DNA of 44,058 bases, taken from positions 1 to 44,058 of IMG/VR virus record IMGVR_UViG_3300021962_000203, one strand, 5' to 3'. Under the pieces are notes generated by a model. It worked only from the letters and a program-made list of their open reading frames with translations, did no database searches and was not told where the DNA came from. A program made the translations under genes and the position numbers. This stretch comes from a virus. How positions within the stretch are numbered: position 1 is the stretch's first letter; every line of letters begins with the position of its first letter. This document shows, piece by piece, positions 32,632 to 39,369 of this stretch.

Positions 32632-32826
32632 TTATTTATTTTTTTCTGTCATTTGTCTCCACCACTTTCTCAAACCCTTCAAATAAATTCTTCTACTTCC
32701 CACTCTAACTGGAGGATCATCACCTGCTTCTTTTGTTCCAGCAATTTGTCCTCCACCAACATTATTAGTTGGTGCTTCTTCATGAAGCTTCCTAAAAGCA
32801 GAAATTACTCTATCAATCTTTTCCAT
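32632..32826 (-). CDS. Small unknown protein (64 aa)
   Basis: MEKIDRVISAFRKLHEEAPT, then a glycine-rich stretch NNVGGGQIAGTKEAGDDPP and a basic aromatic C-terminus (LKGLRKWWRQMTEKNK). Probably soluble. Overlaps the upstream gene by 14 bases. Its stop codon is part of a late motif. Likely a virion or assembly accessory by location. Confidence 0.65.
   Translation of the reverse strand: MEKIDRVISAFRKLHEEAPTNNVGGGQIAGTKEAGDDPPVRVGSRRIYLKGLRKWWRQMTEKNK
32633..32640 (-). promoter_or_regulatory. Late motif AATAAATA
   Basis: Late-type motif overlapping the stop of the 64-aa gene and 30 bases upstream of the 37-aa gene. Confidence 0.45.
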
Positions 32827-33211: not shown

Positions 33212-33988
33212 TCAAACTAATGGATTGCCATCATATAGTGGAGTATTGCCAGTAGTAATACCAGACATTGCAACAAGAATTTCTTTCTTAACTCTCAGAT
33301 TTCCTTGATTATCATTATAGGTAGTTACTCCAACCCAACCTACACCTGCTTCATACTGAGTACCTGATGCTGCTTCAATGCCTTGCTTGTCTACACCGTA
33401 AACATAAGCATCATATGCTCCCCTAGTTCCACTAACAGTGACTTGAGCGCCACTAGCAACTGCAACAGCAATAGTACTTCCAATTGTAACAGCAGTAGGT
33501 GAAAGTGCAGTTACAGTGAATGTTGCTGTTGTAGCAGCATAAGAAACAGTATCACCTGCCTTAATAGCAGTAGGAAGACTTGTTAAATCGCTTGATACTG
33601 GAATAATATTAGTTCCAACTCCAGCAGTTGAACTTGCAGTAGTGACTGCTAAAGTTACTGAAGTTCCGCCACCGTTTGCTTTACTGTAATGAGAATCTAA
33701 AGTAGTAAACTTAGGCAGTTGACTTACATTGAATTGTGCTCCAGAAATAGCAGCGCCACTAAGTCCTGCAGTAGATCCAATGGTTAAAGATGTGGTTGAT
33801 GCAATACTTACAATTACAGCATCGCCATAATAAGTACTAGCACGATCACCAAATCTAATTACATCTCCAACTTGAGCGGATCCTGTTTGACCAAAACTAG
33901 TTCCACTTCCAGTTACAGTTAATGTGTTGTAAGCTAAGGACACTGTTCCAACTGAACTTACAGCATCACTATTTCCCCAGAGTGCCAT
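33212..33988 (-). CDS. Probable virion structural protein, beta-rich (258 aa)
   Basis: Starts MALWGNSDAVSSVGTVSLAY and is dominated by Ser/Thr/Gly/Val/Ala with alternating beta patterns and two similar beta units (TVTGSGTSFGQTGSAQVGDV; TTASSTAGVGTNIIPVSSDL). No Cys. Such sequences are typical of phage capsid decoration, neck or tail proteins. A perfect late promoter TATAAATA and a terminator precede it. DNA is richer in GC than the flanks, as for highly expressed genes. Confidence 0.75.
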   Translation of the reverse strand: MALWGNSDAVSSVGTVSLAYNTLTVTGSGTSFGQTGSAQVGDVIRFGDRASTYYGDAVIVSIASTTSLTIGSTAGLSGAAISGAQFNVSQLPKFTTLDSHYSKANGGGTSVTLAVTTASSTAGVGTNIIPVSSDLTSLPTAIKAGDTVSYAATTATFTVTALSPTAVTIGSTIAVAVASGAQVTVSGTRGAYDAYVYGVDKQGIEAASGTQYEAGVGWVGVTTYNDNQGNLRVKKEILVAMSGITTGNTPLYDGNPLV

Positions 33989-34019: not shown

Positions 34020-34027
34020 TATTTATA
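34020..34027 (-). promoter_or_regulatory. Late promoter TATAAATA
   Basis: A perfect late octamer 32 bases upstream of the structural gene, touching the T-run of the terminator at 34034-34049. Confidence 0.7.
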
Positions 34028-34284: not shown

Positions 34285-36117
34285 TCAGTCTCCAGAACGA
34301 TATCCCCTAATACCACCTAAACCATCCTTACTGTAAACATCATCCTTATATCTTTCTTTAGAAGAAGGTTTTGGTTGTGTTTTTGCTTTTGCTGCCGCTG
34401 CTTTTCTTGCTGCCTCATTTTCGGGAGTTCCCATTAGTGAAGCAGCACCATGCTTAGCAATTACTTGCTGCTTTACAATATCGAGAGCAGATGGTTTTTT
34501 CGTTTCCTCTTTTGCCATCTTAGTTGCAGTTGCATACATTACACTCTTCCAACGATCACCATAACGCTGTTCAAATCCTTTTTTAGATTTTTTCATTCCT
34601 TTCACATAATCCTCTTTTTCAGATTTCTCATCTTTTGTAAGAGTTCTTTCACCTAAATGATCAGCAGATTTATACCTTTTGTCACCTGCTTTAAAATTTT
34701 TGTATGCCTGAGTATTACCTTTTTTATCAGCAGCAGTAACAGTCATTCTAGTATCTACTGGTGCTGCTGGTTTTTTTGGTTCACCACCATAAACTGCTTC
34801 ATCAATCTCAACTTCTTCTTTTTTTAAAGATTTAATATCCTTCTTTGCTTTTTCAACTCCCGCCTTAATAACAGCACCACCTACTTTTTTAATTGCTTGT
34901 CCTGCAGCAGATTGACCAGCACGACGACCTGCTTCATGAGTTACTGCTGCTGCCTTTGCAATAGTCTTACCAGTTTCTTTTGCAGCACTCATTGCTGCTC
35001 TATGGCGCTTCATTCCTTGCTGATATGCTCTAACTGCTCCAAATACACCTCTCGCAATCGCATCTCTAACTGGTTTCTTAGTTGGTTGAGTTTCCTTCGC
35101 TTTCTCAACCGCTTTTGCAGCAGGACGATTTTTCTTCACTACTCCAGATGTTGAAGATGATTTAAATCTTCTTGTAGTTCCATACTTAGCAACTGCTGCT
35201 TTAGTTGCTTGAGTTGGAGCAGTTCCCTTAGGAAGTTTTTGTGGATTCTTTTTCTTTCCAAGTAAAGTTCTTGCTTCGGTAAGAACTTCATTACCTACTT
35301 CAAAAACAAAACTTACAAACTCATCAAGACCGAGTTCTTCAATAAGAATCTCCACTCCCTCATCATTAAGACCTTCTGCCATAAAGTAATCAACAGCACC
35401 ATATACAGTTTCGTTGATATACTCTTCAGATAGTTCTACAGATTCTAAAATTTGGACTTGTTCTTTTATTTCCGGATTAATAGTAACTTTGTTGCTGACT
35501 TTTTTTTCTTTAATTGGTTTTTGAGATTCTTCAGTATCAATTATCTCACGCAAATCTTGCCTCCAATTAGAGAATGATTCTTTTGCAGTTTTAGTCCTAG
35601 TAGTAGCATACAGTCTTTTATTATTTACACCAGGAATAAACTCACCAAGTTCTCCTTTTGCTTTATCATTATTATCAGTATCACCATCAACATCAGTATC
35701 AATTCTTTTTACTGCCTTTGCAACCATACCCTTCAAATCTTTAGAAGGAACTTCATGAGGAGAATGCATTTTTTTAGCAGTAGCATGAACTGCTTCTTGC
35801 ATCTTTTTTTTAGCAATTGCTCTTGCTACTGCCTTTCTTCTTTTAGAAATGTACTTATCATTCTTGTCATTTGAAACTCCATCATTATCAATATCAGCAT
35901 CTTCTCGACCTACTGGATCTAGAGATTCATCAACTCCCATTGCCTTTCTGGCAGATTTTACCATTGACTTATGCGCTTCAGTATTCTTCATATCTTCAAT
36001 TGCTTTTTCATTATTCTTACGGCGCTTGTTCATATCAGTCTCAAGATATGAATCATCATTTTTCTCAGCAACTTGCTGTAGATAAACCTTTGAAAGATCG
36101 TTTAAATGAACTGACAT
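34285..36117 (-). CDS. Large basic Lys/Ala-rich protein, likely head-internal (610 aa)
   Basis: A low-complexity, highly charged protein. Residues about 72-92 (DADIDNDGVSNDKNDKYISK) and 138-152 (RIDTDVDGDTDNNDK) look like single EF-hand/dockerin-type calcium loops. The middle is acidic (EYINETVYGAVDYFMAEGLN), and the rest is Lys/Ala-rich with helix repeats. Several L/I-x-E-A sites (VLTEA, EIDEA) fit the T4 gp21 prohead protease rule. It has a late promoter (36149-36155). I infer a scaffold-like or packaged protein; its exact role is unknown. Confidence 0.65.
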   Translation of the reverse strand: MSVHLNDLSKVYLQQVAEKNDDSYLETDMNKRRKNNEKAIEDMKNTEAHKSMVKSARKAMGVDESLDPVGREDADIDNDGVSNDKNDKYISKRRKAVARAIAKKKMQEAVHATAKKMHSPHEVPSKDLKGMVAKAVKRIDTDVDGDTDNNDKAKGELGEFIPGVNNKRLYATTRTKTAKESFSNWRQDLREIIDTEESQKPIKEKKVSNKVTINPEIKEQVQILESVELSEEYINETVYGAVDYFMAEGLNDEGVEILIEELGLDEFVSFVFEVGNEVLTEARTLLGKKKNPQKLPKGTAPTQATKAAVAKYGTTRRFKSSSTSGVVKKNRPAAKAVEKAKETQPTKKPVRDAIARGVFGAVRAYQQGMKRHRAAMSAAKETGKTIAKAAAVTHEAGRRAGQSAAGQAIKKVGGAVIKAGVEKAKKDIKSLKKEEVEIDEAVYGGEPKKPAAPVDTRMTVTAADKKGNTQAYKNFKAGDKRYKSADHLGERTLTKDEKSEKEDYVKGMKKSKKGFEQRYGDRWKSVMYATATKMAKEETKKPSALDIVKQQVIAKHGAASLMGTPENEAARKAAAAKAKTQPKPSSKERYKDDVYSKDGLGGIRGYRSGD

Positions 36118-36125
36118 TTTACAAA

Positions 36126-37325
36126 TTACTTAATTTTTTTCTTATACTTATTTATGAAATTCTTGATATTGGTTGTATCGCTCATCTTCATAGTATATTT
36201 TCTAAGAGCATCTGTTCCGACTTCTCTTTGATCTGCAGGAACTCCAGATACTTCTGTCCATTCATTTACATCATAAATCCAAGACTTAAACATAATATCA
36301 TCTTCAGTTACACAAATAAGATAATTAGTACCTCTTCTAATTATCTTACCAACAAATCCGGTATTTTGGTTCTCTACAATATCATTTAATTTAAAAATTT
36401 TATTGGAAATATAATTTTCTCTTAATTGTTTAGAATAAATTCTAGGAAATAGTTGCCAATTTTCTTTAACACCACCGATAGATTTTTTTAAGGTTGAGAA
36501 TAATGTTTTTGTTTCTTTATCAGTTAATGCTTTAGGTATTCCAGATCTGAATGTTGGAAAATCATTTTTAGTTACTGCTTGCAGCATAGCAGCAGGAGAT
36601 TTTGCTGTCATGTCTTCACCTGCTTCAATATCTTTTCCTACAGAAACAACATTAATAGTATTAAAATTATAAAGATCACCATTATATTTGTTGGCAAGAT
36701 TTTTAAATTCTCCCAACCTAGATGATCCAACAACAAGTGTTACATCAGTATATCCATCTTCTTCAAGACCAGCAAAAACATCAAATAATGTTTTCATACT
36801 CTCATTATTGATAATATTTTCTTCATACTTTGGATACATTTTTTTCATATATTTAATTTTAGTATCTGGATCTAAAGGATTTTGTTTAGAGTCCTGAGAT
36901 CTTGAAGGATAAATCCTAAAGTCTCCATGAGAAGACATTTTTTGTGCAGCATTTAAAAGTCTTTCATGTGCTGAGGTTGGAGGATTAAACCTAGCAAATA
37001 CGATTGTAATTGCATCAGATACTACTTGATTAGAATCCTTATTTTCCGAATCTGATACTTTCTTTGGTTTTTGGTTTGGAGTTTGTGCTACTTTTTGCTG
37101 CACTACTTGTACTGGTTTTAGAGCAGCAGAGTTGGGAGAATCCCTTTCACCAACCTTCTGACCTTTAGTATAAAACTTCAATTCACCACCAACAGTTTTA
37201 GCAATAAATTCTCCTTGAGTGTTATACCACCCGCCGTGACCATCTCCTTTCAATCCAAGTCTTCTCGCTTGAACTGATGCTTGAGATTCTTTTGCTTCTA
37301 TTAAAAAGTTGGAAAAATTTTTCAT
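36126..37325 (-). CDS. Nucleotidyltransferase-like protein with capsid-targeting N-terminus (399 aa)
   Basis: The first 11 residues, MKNFSNFLIEA, resemble the T4 internal-protein capsid-targeting peptide (MKTYQEFIAEA) and end at a gp21-type cleavage site. A small beta module follows (LGLKGDGHGGWYNTQGEFIA). From about residue 103 there is a nucleotidyltransferase fold: ITIVFARFNPPTSAHERLLN (T-x-x-H signature with Ala in place of the usual Gly), DVTLVVGSSRLGEF, and FRSGIPKAL where the family has its S-x-x-x-R/K motif. The C-terminal part (NTGFVGKIIRRGTNYLICV) looks like a small beta-barrel. It may be packaged and injected. Substrate unknown; NMN or other nucleotide adenylyl/cytidylyl transfer is possible. 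Confidence 0.7.
   Translation of the reverse strand: MKNFSNFLIEAKESQASVQARRLGLKGDGHGGWYNTQGEFIAKTVGGELKFYTKGQKVGERDSPNSAALKPVQVVQQKVAQTPNQKPKKVSDSENKDSNQVVSDAITIVFARFNPPTSAHERLLNAAQKMSSHGDFRIYPSRSQDSKQNPLDPDTKIKYMKKMYPKYEENIINNESMKTLFDVFAGLEEDGYTDVTLVVGSSRLGEFKNLANKYNGDLYNFNTINVVSVGKDIEAGEDMTAKSPAAMLQAVTKNDFPTFRSGIPKALTDKETKTLFSTLKKSIGGVKENWQLFPRIYSKQLRENYISNKIFKLNDIVENQNTGFVGKIIRRGTNYLICVTEDDIMFKSWIYDVNEWTEVSGVPADQREVGTDALRKYTMKMSDTTNIKNFINKYKKKIK
36149..36155 (-). promoter_or_regulatory. Late promoter ATAAATA
   Basis: Late-type motif 32 bases upstream of the 610-aa gene, inside the 3' end of the nucleotidyltransferase-like gene. Confidence 0.5.
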
Positions 37326-37342: not shown

Positions 37343-37858
37343 CTATTTATTAACTCTGTATTTTATTGGTTTCATGTACTCAATTGTTTTCATATAATTC
37401 ATTTCGTTAGGTTCTATTACATGTAAAGCCCCTGCAACTTCTTCCCATGTATATCTTCTAATTTTTTTCCAATGATAATTTAATCCTTCAAATCCCCACT
37501 TGTATATTCTAAAGACCGCAACTAAAGGATGTTGATCATAATAGACTTTATCTAAATCAAGAACACCATCATAGTCTCTATTTAAAACAGTTTTTGCATT
37601 GTATATAAAAGTATAATATTTTCCTTCAGTTGGTATCCATTCAATTTCATCAAAAACATCAAGTATTTCTATCATTTTATCTTCAGCATCACTTAAATTG
37701 TTTATGCGAGACTTTAATTCAATAATTCTTTTTTGAGGATCAATTTTTTCAAATTCTTTTACTTGTTCTTCAAGTCTTCTTTTCGCTTCAAGTTTTTCTC
37801 TTTGAGAAGATAGTAAAGGTTTTACTTTACCTTTAGGAATTTTACTCCTTTTAGGCAT
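37343..37858 (-). CDS. Unknown late protein (171 aa)
   Basis: A very basic N-terminus (MPKRSKIPKGKVKPLLSSQR) leads into a coiled coil (EKLEAKRRLEEQVKEFEKID... IELKSRINNL). An aromatic-rich C-terminal domain follows (VFRIYKWGFEGLNYHWKKIR, YTWEEVAGALHVIEP). Probably DNA- or scaffold-binding. Late promoter at 37883-37890; the gene stop overlaps the next late promoter. Family not recognised. Confidence 0.65.
   Translation of the reverse strand: MPKRSKIPKGKVKPLLSSQREKLEAKRRLEEQVKEFEKIDPQKRIIELKSRINNLSDAEDKMIEILDVFDEIEWIPTEGKYYTFIYNAKTVLNRDYDGVLDLDKVYYDQHPLVAVFRIYKWGFEGLNYHWKKIRRYTWEEVAGALHVIEPNEMNYMKTIEYMKPIKYRVNK
37344..37351 (-). promoter_or_regulatory. Late promoter AATAAATA
   Basis: Late-type motif 19 bases upstream of the nucleotidyltransferase-like gene, overlapping the stop codon of the 171-aa gene. 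Confidence 0.55.
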
Positions 37859-37882: not shown

Positions 37883-37890
37883 TATTTATT
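37883..37890 (-). promoter_or_regulatory. Late promoter AATAAATA
   Basis: Late-type motif 25 bases upstream of the 171-aa gene, after a terminator. Confidence 0.6.
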
Positions 37891-37960: not shown

Positions 37961-38812
37961 TCAGTTTTGAGTATTATTTTCAATAATCTCATTTCTCCAC
38001 TCTTCACTCATATTTGCCATGATTGCGATTGCTTGGTCTTTAGTACTAGCGTAACCTTCATCTAGAAGATGACCAAGAACAATATCATATGTATCTTCTT
38101 TCATTCTTCTTGCAACTCCAAGAGCTGCTTTACGAATTCCTTTTTTAGCAGCGGACTTGACTGCTTTTGGAGCAGACATTACAGCACTTGCAACTCCTGC
38201 AGCCATAGTTTTTGCCTTTTCAATTCCTCTACCTAGTTTTGCTTTTGCTCTTGTAGCAATATCCTTTGCTACAATACCACGAACTTCTCTTCTTCCTGTT
38301 GATGTTCTTTGCTTTGCTTGAATAGCAGGACTTGTTAATGTAGTTTTACCGCTTCTGCTAGGAACTAGTTTTCTCTTTGCAGCATATTCTCTAGCAGGTT
38401 CATCAACTGCACTTCTTACTTTTGAAATACCACTTTTAATTGCAGACTTTACCTTTTCCTTTCTTCTTTCAATTTTAGACTTTTTCATTCTTTCAAGTCT
38501 AGATGCCGCAGCAATTCTAGATCCAGAACCCTTAGTTACTGTTGATCCACCACTTCCAGATGTACGATCATCACTAGAAGTTACTTTTGCTTCAGAAAGA
38601 ATTTCTTCACAAATTTCTTCTTCAAAAATTTCTTCAATATCTCCAATAGTATAACCCTCATCTAAAAGATTTAAAATTACTTCTTCAACAATTTCTTCTA
38701 AATCTTCATAAGATACTTCATCAATAACACTAAGATCTTCTTGAAGATCATTTTCGTCTTGATAAACTGCACTGTAACTTTCCATCAGTGCCTTTAAGTC
38801 TTTTGAATCCAT
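37961..38812 (-). CDS. Probable scaffold/internal head protein (283 aa)
   Basis: An acidic N-terminal third (LEEIVEEVILNLLDEGYTIG DIEEIF) is followed by a very basic Ala/Lys/Arg-rich C-terminal two-thirds with helix repeats. Potential gp21 cleavage sites: LMES near residue 10 and ILSEA at about 72-76. The acidic/basic split and start (MDSKDLKALMESYSAVY) resemble cyanophage head-core proteins. A perfect late promoter lies 28 bases upstream. Exact role unknown. Confidence 0.65.
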   Translation of the reverse strand: MDSKDLKALMESYSAVYQDENDLQEDLSVIDEVSYEDLEEIVEEVILNLLDEGYTIGDIEEIFEEEICEEILSEAKVTSSDDRTSGSGGSTVTKGSGSRIAAASRLERMKKSKIERRKEKVKSAIKSGISKVRSAVDEPAREYAAKRKLVPSRSGKTTLTSPAIQAKQRTSTGRREVRGIVAKDIATRAKAKLGRGIEKAKTMAAGVASAVMSAPKAVKSAAKKGIRKAALGVARRMKEDTYDIVLGHLLDEGYASTKDQAIAIMANMSEEWRNEIIENNTQN

Positions 38813-38839: not shown

Positions 38840-38847
38840 TATTTATA
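38840..38847 (-). promoter_or_regulatory. Late promoter TATAAATA
   Basis: A perfect late octamer, 28 bases upstream of the 283-aa gene. Confidence 0.7.
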
Positions 38848-38851
38848 TATT

Positions 38852-39319
38852 TTAGGTATTGCCTCTAGTACCATATGTTCTACCAGTTCTTGAAATATTA
38901 GTTCCTCTTCCTCCAGAAGTTCCTTTTTTAGCATATCTATTCTGAGTTATAGTGTCTCTTTCTGATGGAAGATCTGTTCTCTGAACATCAGATGTAGTTC
39001 CAGCTTTACTCACTACATCTCTAGGTTTTGATGCGTATCCACTTATCTTAGTATTTGTTCTTCCAGCATCTTTATTTTCTGGACGAGGATCTTTTATTTT
39101 TGCTCTTTCATTTTCACCAGAAACTACAGATCTCAATCTCTTAACTCTTTGAGCAATCTGCACCATTCTCTCTGGTGTAGTACCTCTTGCAGTTGTTTGT
39201 CTAGAAACTTGAGATATTTTTTGTGTTGCTGTATCTGCAGGACTTTTTCCACTTCCCTTAAGTCTACCAGTATTCCATGCAATTTCTGCTTCTAAAATAA
39301 ACTCAGAGAAAGTTTTCAT
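38852..39319 (-). CDS. Basic internal head protein with T4-type capsid-targeting peptide (155 aa)
   Basis: The N-terminus MKTFSEFILEA matches the T4 internal protein targeting peptide MKTYQEFIAEA at eight of eleven positions plus one conservative Tyr/Phe change, and ends in a gp21-type site (I-L-E then A). The mature part is basic and low-complexity (Arg/Thr/Ser/Gly; ending GRGTNISRTGRTYGTRGNT). That is the profile of proteins packed with DNA in the head and injected. The gene has its own late promoter and a terminator upstream. Function after injection unknown. Confidence 0.75.
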   Translation of the reverse strand: MKTFSEFILEAEIAWNTGRLKGSGKSPADTATQKISQVSRQTTARGTTPERMVQIAQRVKRLRSVVSGENERAKIKDPRPENKDAGRTNTKISGYASKPRDVVSKAGTTSDVQRTDLPSERDTITQNRYAKKGTSGGRGTNISRTGRTYGTRGNT

Positions 39320-39339: not shown

Positions 39340-39346
39340 TATTTAT
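39340..39346 (-). promoter_or_regulatory. Late promoter ATAAATA
   Basis: Late-type motif 21 bases upstream of the internal head protein gene. Confidence 0.6.
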
Positions 39347-39351
39347 GAAAA

Positions 39352-39369
39352 AACCTCCCGAAGGAGGTT
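39352..39369 (-). terminator. Terminator with UUCG tetraloop
   Basis: AACCUCC-UUCG-GGAGGUU followed by UUUU on the minus strand, directly after the 61-aa gene's stop at 39374. The C(UUCG)G loop is very stable. Confidence 0.92.

Follow-up and report, generated by a model that had tools for sequence, protein, structure and literature searches.

The gene at 38852-39319 on the minus strand of the window (the whole 44,058-nucleotide stretch of viral DNA analyzed here) very probably codes for a head-internal protein of the T4 internal-protein (IP) type that is targeted to the prohead and packaged. Its targeting by an N-terminal capsid-targeting sequence (CTS) is well supported; its cleavage, ejection, and function are inferred. 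The gene, its tag, and the late genes that follow it are listed here in the direction of transcription:

39348-39367, minus strand: terminator-like hairpin CCTCC-TTCG-GGAGG with a T-run, separating the mazG-side genes from the gene under study.
39340-39347, minus strand: late promoter CATAAATA, 21 bp upstream of the start codon.
38852-39319, minus strand: gene for the putative internal-protein-type head protein of 155 amino acids (CTS, middle module, basic tail).
39287-39319, minus strand: CTS MKTFSEFILEA, codons 1-11; the predicted cut falls between codons 10 and 11 (E↓A; arrows mark cleavage positions throughout).
38855-39289, minus strand: predicted mature protein from A11 (145 amino acids, pI 11.1, net charge +17).
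37961-38812, minus strand: second protein of the run; late promoter at 38840-38847.
37343-37858, minus strand: gp2-like DNA end protector (phrog_429, E 2.7e-13); late promoter at 37883-37890.
36126-37325, minus strand: NMNAT/cytidylyltransferase-like enzyme with the CTS MKNFSNFLIEA (phrog_395, E 8.8e-84); late promoter at 37344-37351.
34285-36117, minus strand: basic modular protein, orthologue of S-SCSM1 ORF92 (detected in virions by mass spectrometry); late promoter at 36149-36156.
33212-33988, minus strand: phrog_3086 protein, orthologue of S-SCSM1 ORF95 (detected in virions by mass spectrometry); late promoter at 34020-34027.

As read from the minus strand of the window, the open reading frame starts with ATG, and its product has the N-terminus MKTFSEFILEAEIAWNTG. 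The original prediction had likened MKTFSEFILEA to the T4 targeting peptide MKTYQEFIAEA, with which both ipII and ipIII begin in NC_000866; the two peptides are identical at 8 of 11 positions (P ~2e-7, given the composition of the window), an agreement reached by none of 200,000 random N-termini. The resemblance is real and far beyond chance. Mutagenesis in T4 tied residues 4 and 7 to targeting and residues 8 and 10 to processing (PMC9026906). The protein has aromatic residues at 4 and 7 (F4 and F7), followed by I8 and E10, as is characteristic of a CTS (aromatic at 4 and 7, I or L at 8, E at 10); at the sequence level, all four residues important in T4 genetics are kept in kind. When the general motif M[KR]x[FYW]xx[FY][ILVM]xE[AGS] was scored at the N-termini of 56 window genes, it was observed twice (in this gene and in 36126-37325) against an expectation of 2e-4. 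The protein contains a single I/L-x-E↓A/G/S site, I8-L9-E10↓A11, which ends the CTS and whose I8, E10, and A11 are invariant in relatives, so the gp21-type cleavage position claimed earlier is indeed present. Two mature N-termini had been suggested: the gp21 rule gives AEIAWNTG, in line with AEIAWN, and not EIAWNTG. The description of the remainder as small and basic also holds for the predicted mature protein. The AlphaFold model, of low confidence (mean pLDDT 49), has helices at about residues 27-42 and 49-75 and is disordered thereafter; for the family, modeling yields little beyond a helix at the CTS and helical structure in the middle part.

We identified 19 relatives of this protein in IMG/VR, giving a family of 20. 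No match was found by tblastn with this protein and a second-type relative in 50,697 phage records, so that no cultured phage record matches, and Pfam and NCBIfam gave no usable match for the protein. Across the family, M1, K2, T3, F4, E6, F7, I8, E10, and A11 of the CTS are invariant and positions 5 and 9 are free; the codons of seven of the nine fixed residues vary silently. Fixed residues encoded by silently varying codons indicate that selection acts on the peptide itself. Behind this constant CTS, two middle modules (WNTG...SP or NVSSQIA) and two C-terminal modules (a GTTSDVQRTDL...GRTYGTRG tail or another basic tail, as in L018 and L019) are recombined, and the mature forms are all basic (pI 10.4-11.5). 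The profile phrog_2667, annotated as internal head protein, matched residues 1-76 of the protein with E 0.014 and was weakly matched by 7 of the 11 family members tested, and likewise weakly by T4 ipII and ipIII; this match is below ordinary significance and is probably driven by the CTS, a stretch too short to give strong database scores. The mature part has no match to the T4 ipII/ipIII families beyond the CTS, which places the protein in the same class without making it an orthologue, and S-SCSM1, S-SM2, and P-SSM2 have no such gene at the equivalent place. It represents a new family of the CTS-bearing internal-protein kind.

The motif NATAAATA has been described as the cyanophage late promoter of T4 type (PMC2984593). 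It is found upstream of all 20 family members. In the window it takes the form CATAAATA directly after the terminator-like hairpin, which recurs upstream of several relatives; the earlier claim of late expression fits this placement, and late transcription of the gene is supported by the promoter motif. Six window genes in a row each have the motif 19-32 bp ahead of them, the first being the gene under study, followed by 37961-38812, the gp2-like gene, the NMNAT-like gene, 34285-36117, and 33212-33988. At that distance, it was not found before gp61, nrdA, nrdB, mazG, gp41, or uvsX in the window (the start of gp43 lies outside it). It also precedes a few other window genes, so we treat it as a marker of late timing and not of virion function; its placement, not its total number, is above chance.

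The gene order gp41-mazG-small ORF-internal-protein-type gene-37961-like-(gp2)-NMNAT-like-34285-like is kept in relatives, and a 37961-like gene adjoins the gene in almost every relative whose sequence extends far enough. The 37961-38812 product, also a modular protein, has an acidic stretch (residues 1-74, net -25), a gp21-type site ILSE↓A at 74, and a basic remainder (net +25); this division at the site would suit an acidic propeptide that is removed. The late modular protein 34285-36117 also carries a gp21-type site, VLTE↓A. The gp2-like gene, with its own late promoter, sits amid late virion-type genes, and its product is 47% identical to the terminal DNA protecting protein of S-SCSM1; gp2 was reportedly listed in only two cyanophages in a 2010 review. 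The window contig is a fragment without head genes. In two long contigs that bear the family, we found a gp21 protease 78-79% identical to S-SCSM1 gp21, and in one of these contigs the gp23 sequence, which was read, contains an LME↓S site (LxE↓S type). Peptides resembling the gp23 cleavage region (EEAPTNNVGGG; SSAAEGPTAGYDPL) occur in the small proteins encoded at 32632-32826 (minus strand) and by S-SCSM1 ORF97 (L028, 43121-43306), the latter annotated as a virion protein. Elsewhere in this phage contig, 3041-4507 (minus strand) encodes a full-length cyanobacterial iron-uptake porin (NF033921, E 5.5e-85), and an annotated porin of phage S-SRM01 is 70% identical to it.

The other CTS-bearing gene of the window encodes the NMNAT-like enzyme. 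In two virion studies, its orthologues were detected by mass spectrometry in virions of S-SCSM1 (PMC9602691) and S-SZBM1 (PMC9146016), and they start with MKSFLQFLKEA (S-SCSM1 ORF91) and MRFRQFIIEA (S-SZBM1_140). For S-SCSM1, the counterparts of all three genes that close the run were detected in virions (PMC9602691), and for S-SZBM1, the NMNAT-like protein together with a neighbor (PMC9146016); the authors of the virion studies considered that the NMNAT-like enzymes could be carried over from the lysate. The predicted CTS argues against carry-over and may be the reason for the repeated presence of these orthologues in cyanophage virion proteomes. The NMNAT-like protein of S-PRM1 has a degenerate variant, VSFFKKVRTILEG, and the strict CTS pattern found no match in S-PM2 and S-CBWM1. 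Another CTS-like family, MK[ST]FK[QS]F[ML]SES, is acidic or near neutral (S-SCSM1 ORF30, S-SZBM1_191) and does not appear in the S-SCSM1 and S-SZBM1 virion lists; the motif alone is therefore no proof of packaging. Its absence may reflect either small size or the insufficiency of the motif by itself. Conserved MK[ST]FK[QS]F[ML]SESVNI proteins with this CTS-like start make up phrog_1742 and are encoded near terminase genes (S-SCSM1 44215-44535, L027, and homologues). A small protein detected by mass spectrometry, S-SZBM1_90, was considered as a CTS protein and rejected, its N-terminus being signal-peptide-like instead.

The tag can be followed as a class. The DNA-level pattern ATGAARNNNTWYNNNNNNTTYNTNNNNGAR gave 24 matches in nine records (none with the reversed pattern) and 6 in six further records (none with the control). 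A narrower CTS pattern matched at least 119 stretches in IMG/VR, and two scrambled patterns matched none. In T4, the pattern matches only at ipII, ipIII, and gp61.1. The last (NC_000866, 18966-19130, minus strand; L053) encodes 54 amino acids beginning with MKTFKEFIKED, close to the IP targeting sequence, and is possibly an unrecognized T4 head protein.

Cargos were analyzed in a sample of 82 ORFs at 80 loci among the IMG/VR matches listed. In this sample, an upstream in-frame ATG was lacking in 81 of the 82 ORFs, NATAAATA was present within 60 bp in 31, the mature pI exceeded 9 in 56 of 68 complete ORFs, and recognizable T4 core genes were found at 61 of the 80 loci. The cargos among these matches form at least 28 clusters and include NMNAT-like, GNAT, glucosaminidase, DUF6321, DUF6267, deoxyribonucleotidase-like, and endonuclease VII-like proteins. 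We lean slightly toward the view that MKxFxxFIxEA serves marine T4-like viruses generally as a portable address for loading into the head and is borne by many unrelated cargos; these would range from NMNAT-like, GNAT, glucosaminidase, HNH-like, deoxyribonucleotidase-like, and possibly ADP-ribosyltransferase-like proteins to many small basic ones. Tandem overlapping CTS genes occur at L082 (3736-4529) and L117 (639-1591); one of each pair is weakly ADP-ribosyltransferase/RNA 2'-phosphotransferase-like, and one CTS protein at L082 is a GNAT acetyltransferase. For the L117-type cargo, matches to the ADP-ribosyltransferase fold were weak (PARP, E 0.12; RNA 2'-phosphotransferase, E 7e-4 to 0.33), and a fold search with its poor model (pLDDT 50) was empty, so this fold is a suggestion. 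T4 Alt, a head-internal ADP-ribosyltransferase packaged in the head and injected, is the model for enzymatic cargo; it is not homologous to the protein studied here. Among the CTS-bearing cargos of related viruses, some (L082, L117, L150, L089) look only weakly ADP-ribosyltransferase-like.

Compared with known systems, the protein shares with T4 IPII and IPIII (and with IPI) a CTS with matching key residues, a gp21-type cleavage position, a small basic mature protein, late gene status, and little conservation behind the tag. Unlike IPII and IPIII, it belongs to a cyanophage, has a modular middle and tail, and lacks homology to them in the mature part; its gene lies in the mazG-gp61 interval near the NMNAT-like CTS enzyme and not beside e/denV as in T4. 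With the NMNAT/cytidylyltransferase (T4-GC 190; S-SCSM1 ORF91, S-SZBM1_140), it shares the N-terminal tag and the late gene run; however, the latter is an enzyme of about 400 amino acids, widespread in cultured cyanophages and detected in virions.

By analogy with T4, residues 1-10/11 would fold as an amphipathic helix and attach to the prohead core while the head is being assembled, and a gp21-type protease would then cut after E10 (SEFILE↓AEIAWN). The strongly basic, largely disordered mature protein of 145 residues would stay in the head with the DNA and, if it behaves as the T4 internal proteins do, would probably be ejected with the genome into the cyanobacterium. Its later role can be guessed at as coating or condensing DNA or as acting on host defense or the nucleoid after entry; we give about even chances to a role on DNA or the host after ejection. 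The swapping of modules behind the tag speaks for a role shaped by selection from the host, as in the case of T4 IPI. The parts of this head-internal reading that sequence can address are all favorable and support it: a fixed CTS, a gp21-type site, a basic mature part, late promoters, a tagged neighbor with orthologues in virions, a gp21-type protease in contigs that bear the family, and the overwhelming link of the tag to T4-like viruses.

Several other explanations deserve consideration. The protein could be targeted and cleaved as a prohead core or assembly protein that replaces T4 gp67/gp68, serving head building and not acting as an injected effector. Cyanomyoviruses are without gp67 and gp68 (PMC2984593), T4 IPIII has a head-morphogenesis phenotype (PMC9026906), and the adjacent 37961-38812 product passes from an acidic N-terminus through an LSE↓A site into a basic remainder; yet the part behind the CTS is swapped among relatives, unlike an essential core part, and the gene is missing from the equivalent place in the three cyanophages named above, so we consider this role unlikely, at perhaps one chance in four. 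Less likely still is that it is a counter-defense protein like T4 IPI, injected to block cyanobacterial restriction or DNA-targeting defense at entry: module swapping behind a fixed tag does resemble the variability of T-even IPs, which is tied to restriction systems (PMC9026906), but the libraries searched revealed no homology to known anti-restriction proteins, and a tail that is disordered and basic would be more usual in a DNA-binding protein.

Basic composition fits any DNA-binding role, so the N-terminal helix might instead dock to another phage or host complex, with the protein acting as a late cytoplasmic DNA-binding protein. The absence of one CTS-like family from the virion lists is compatible with this. 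Nevertheless, in T4 the pattern marks ipII, ipIII, and just one other small protein, and the gene is one of six consecutive late genes, three of which have virion orthologues detected by mass spectrometry; we regard docking as improbable. A chance resemblance, conceivable because the motif is short, is refuted statistically by the P value, the conservation in the family, and the contrast between no matches with scrambled patterns and at least 119 with the CTS pattern, and its probability is negligible. The T4 IP-type internal head protein is the reading we prefer.

The CTS on T4 internal proteins has long been known, and a review already suggests that it may let T4-like phages load a variety of proteins (PMC9026906). 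In the open papers searched, neither cyanophage proteins in general nor the NMNAT-like enzyme of virions were described as carrying this tag; a search combining CTS and cyanophage gave just a T4 review, and the available parts of the virion papers (PMC9602691, PMC9146016) contain no mention of a targeting tag on the NMNAT-like enzyme. Papers on cyanophage virions leave the NMNAT-like enzymes of purified particles as either cargo or contaminant; a T4-type tag offers a mechanism for their presence that can be tested directly. Should the tag act as in T4, the injected proteins of abundant marine T4-like viruses could be read from sequence, and the modules swapped behind it would point to host-facing functions. 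If it is indeed a portable address, scanning N-termini would be enough to list what these viruses inject at the start of infection. The tag may thus mark what viruses of ocean cyanobacteria and related marine viruses inject along with their DNA.
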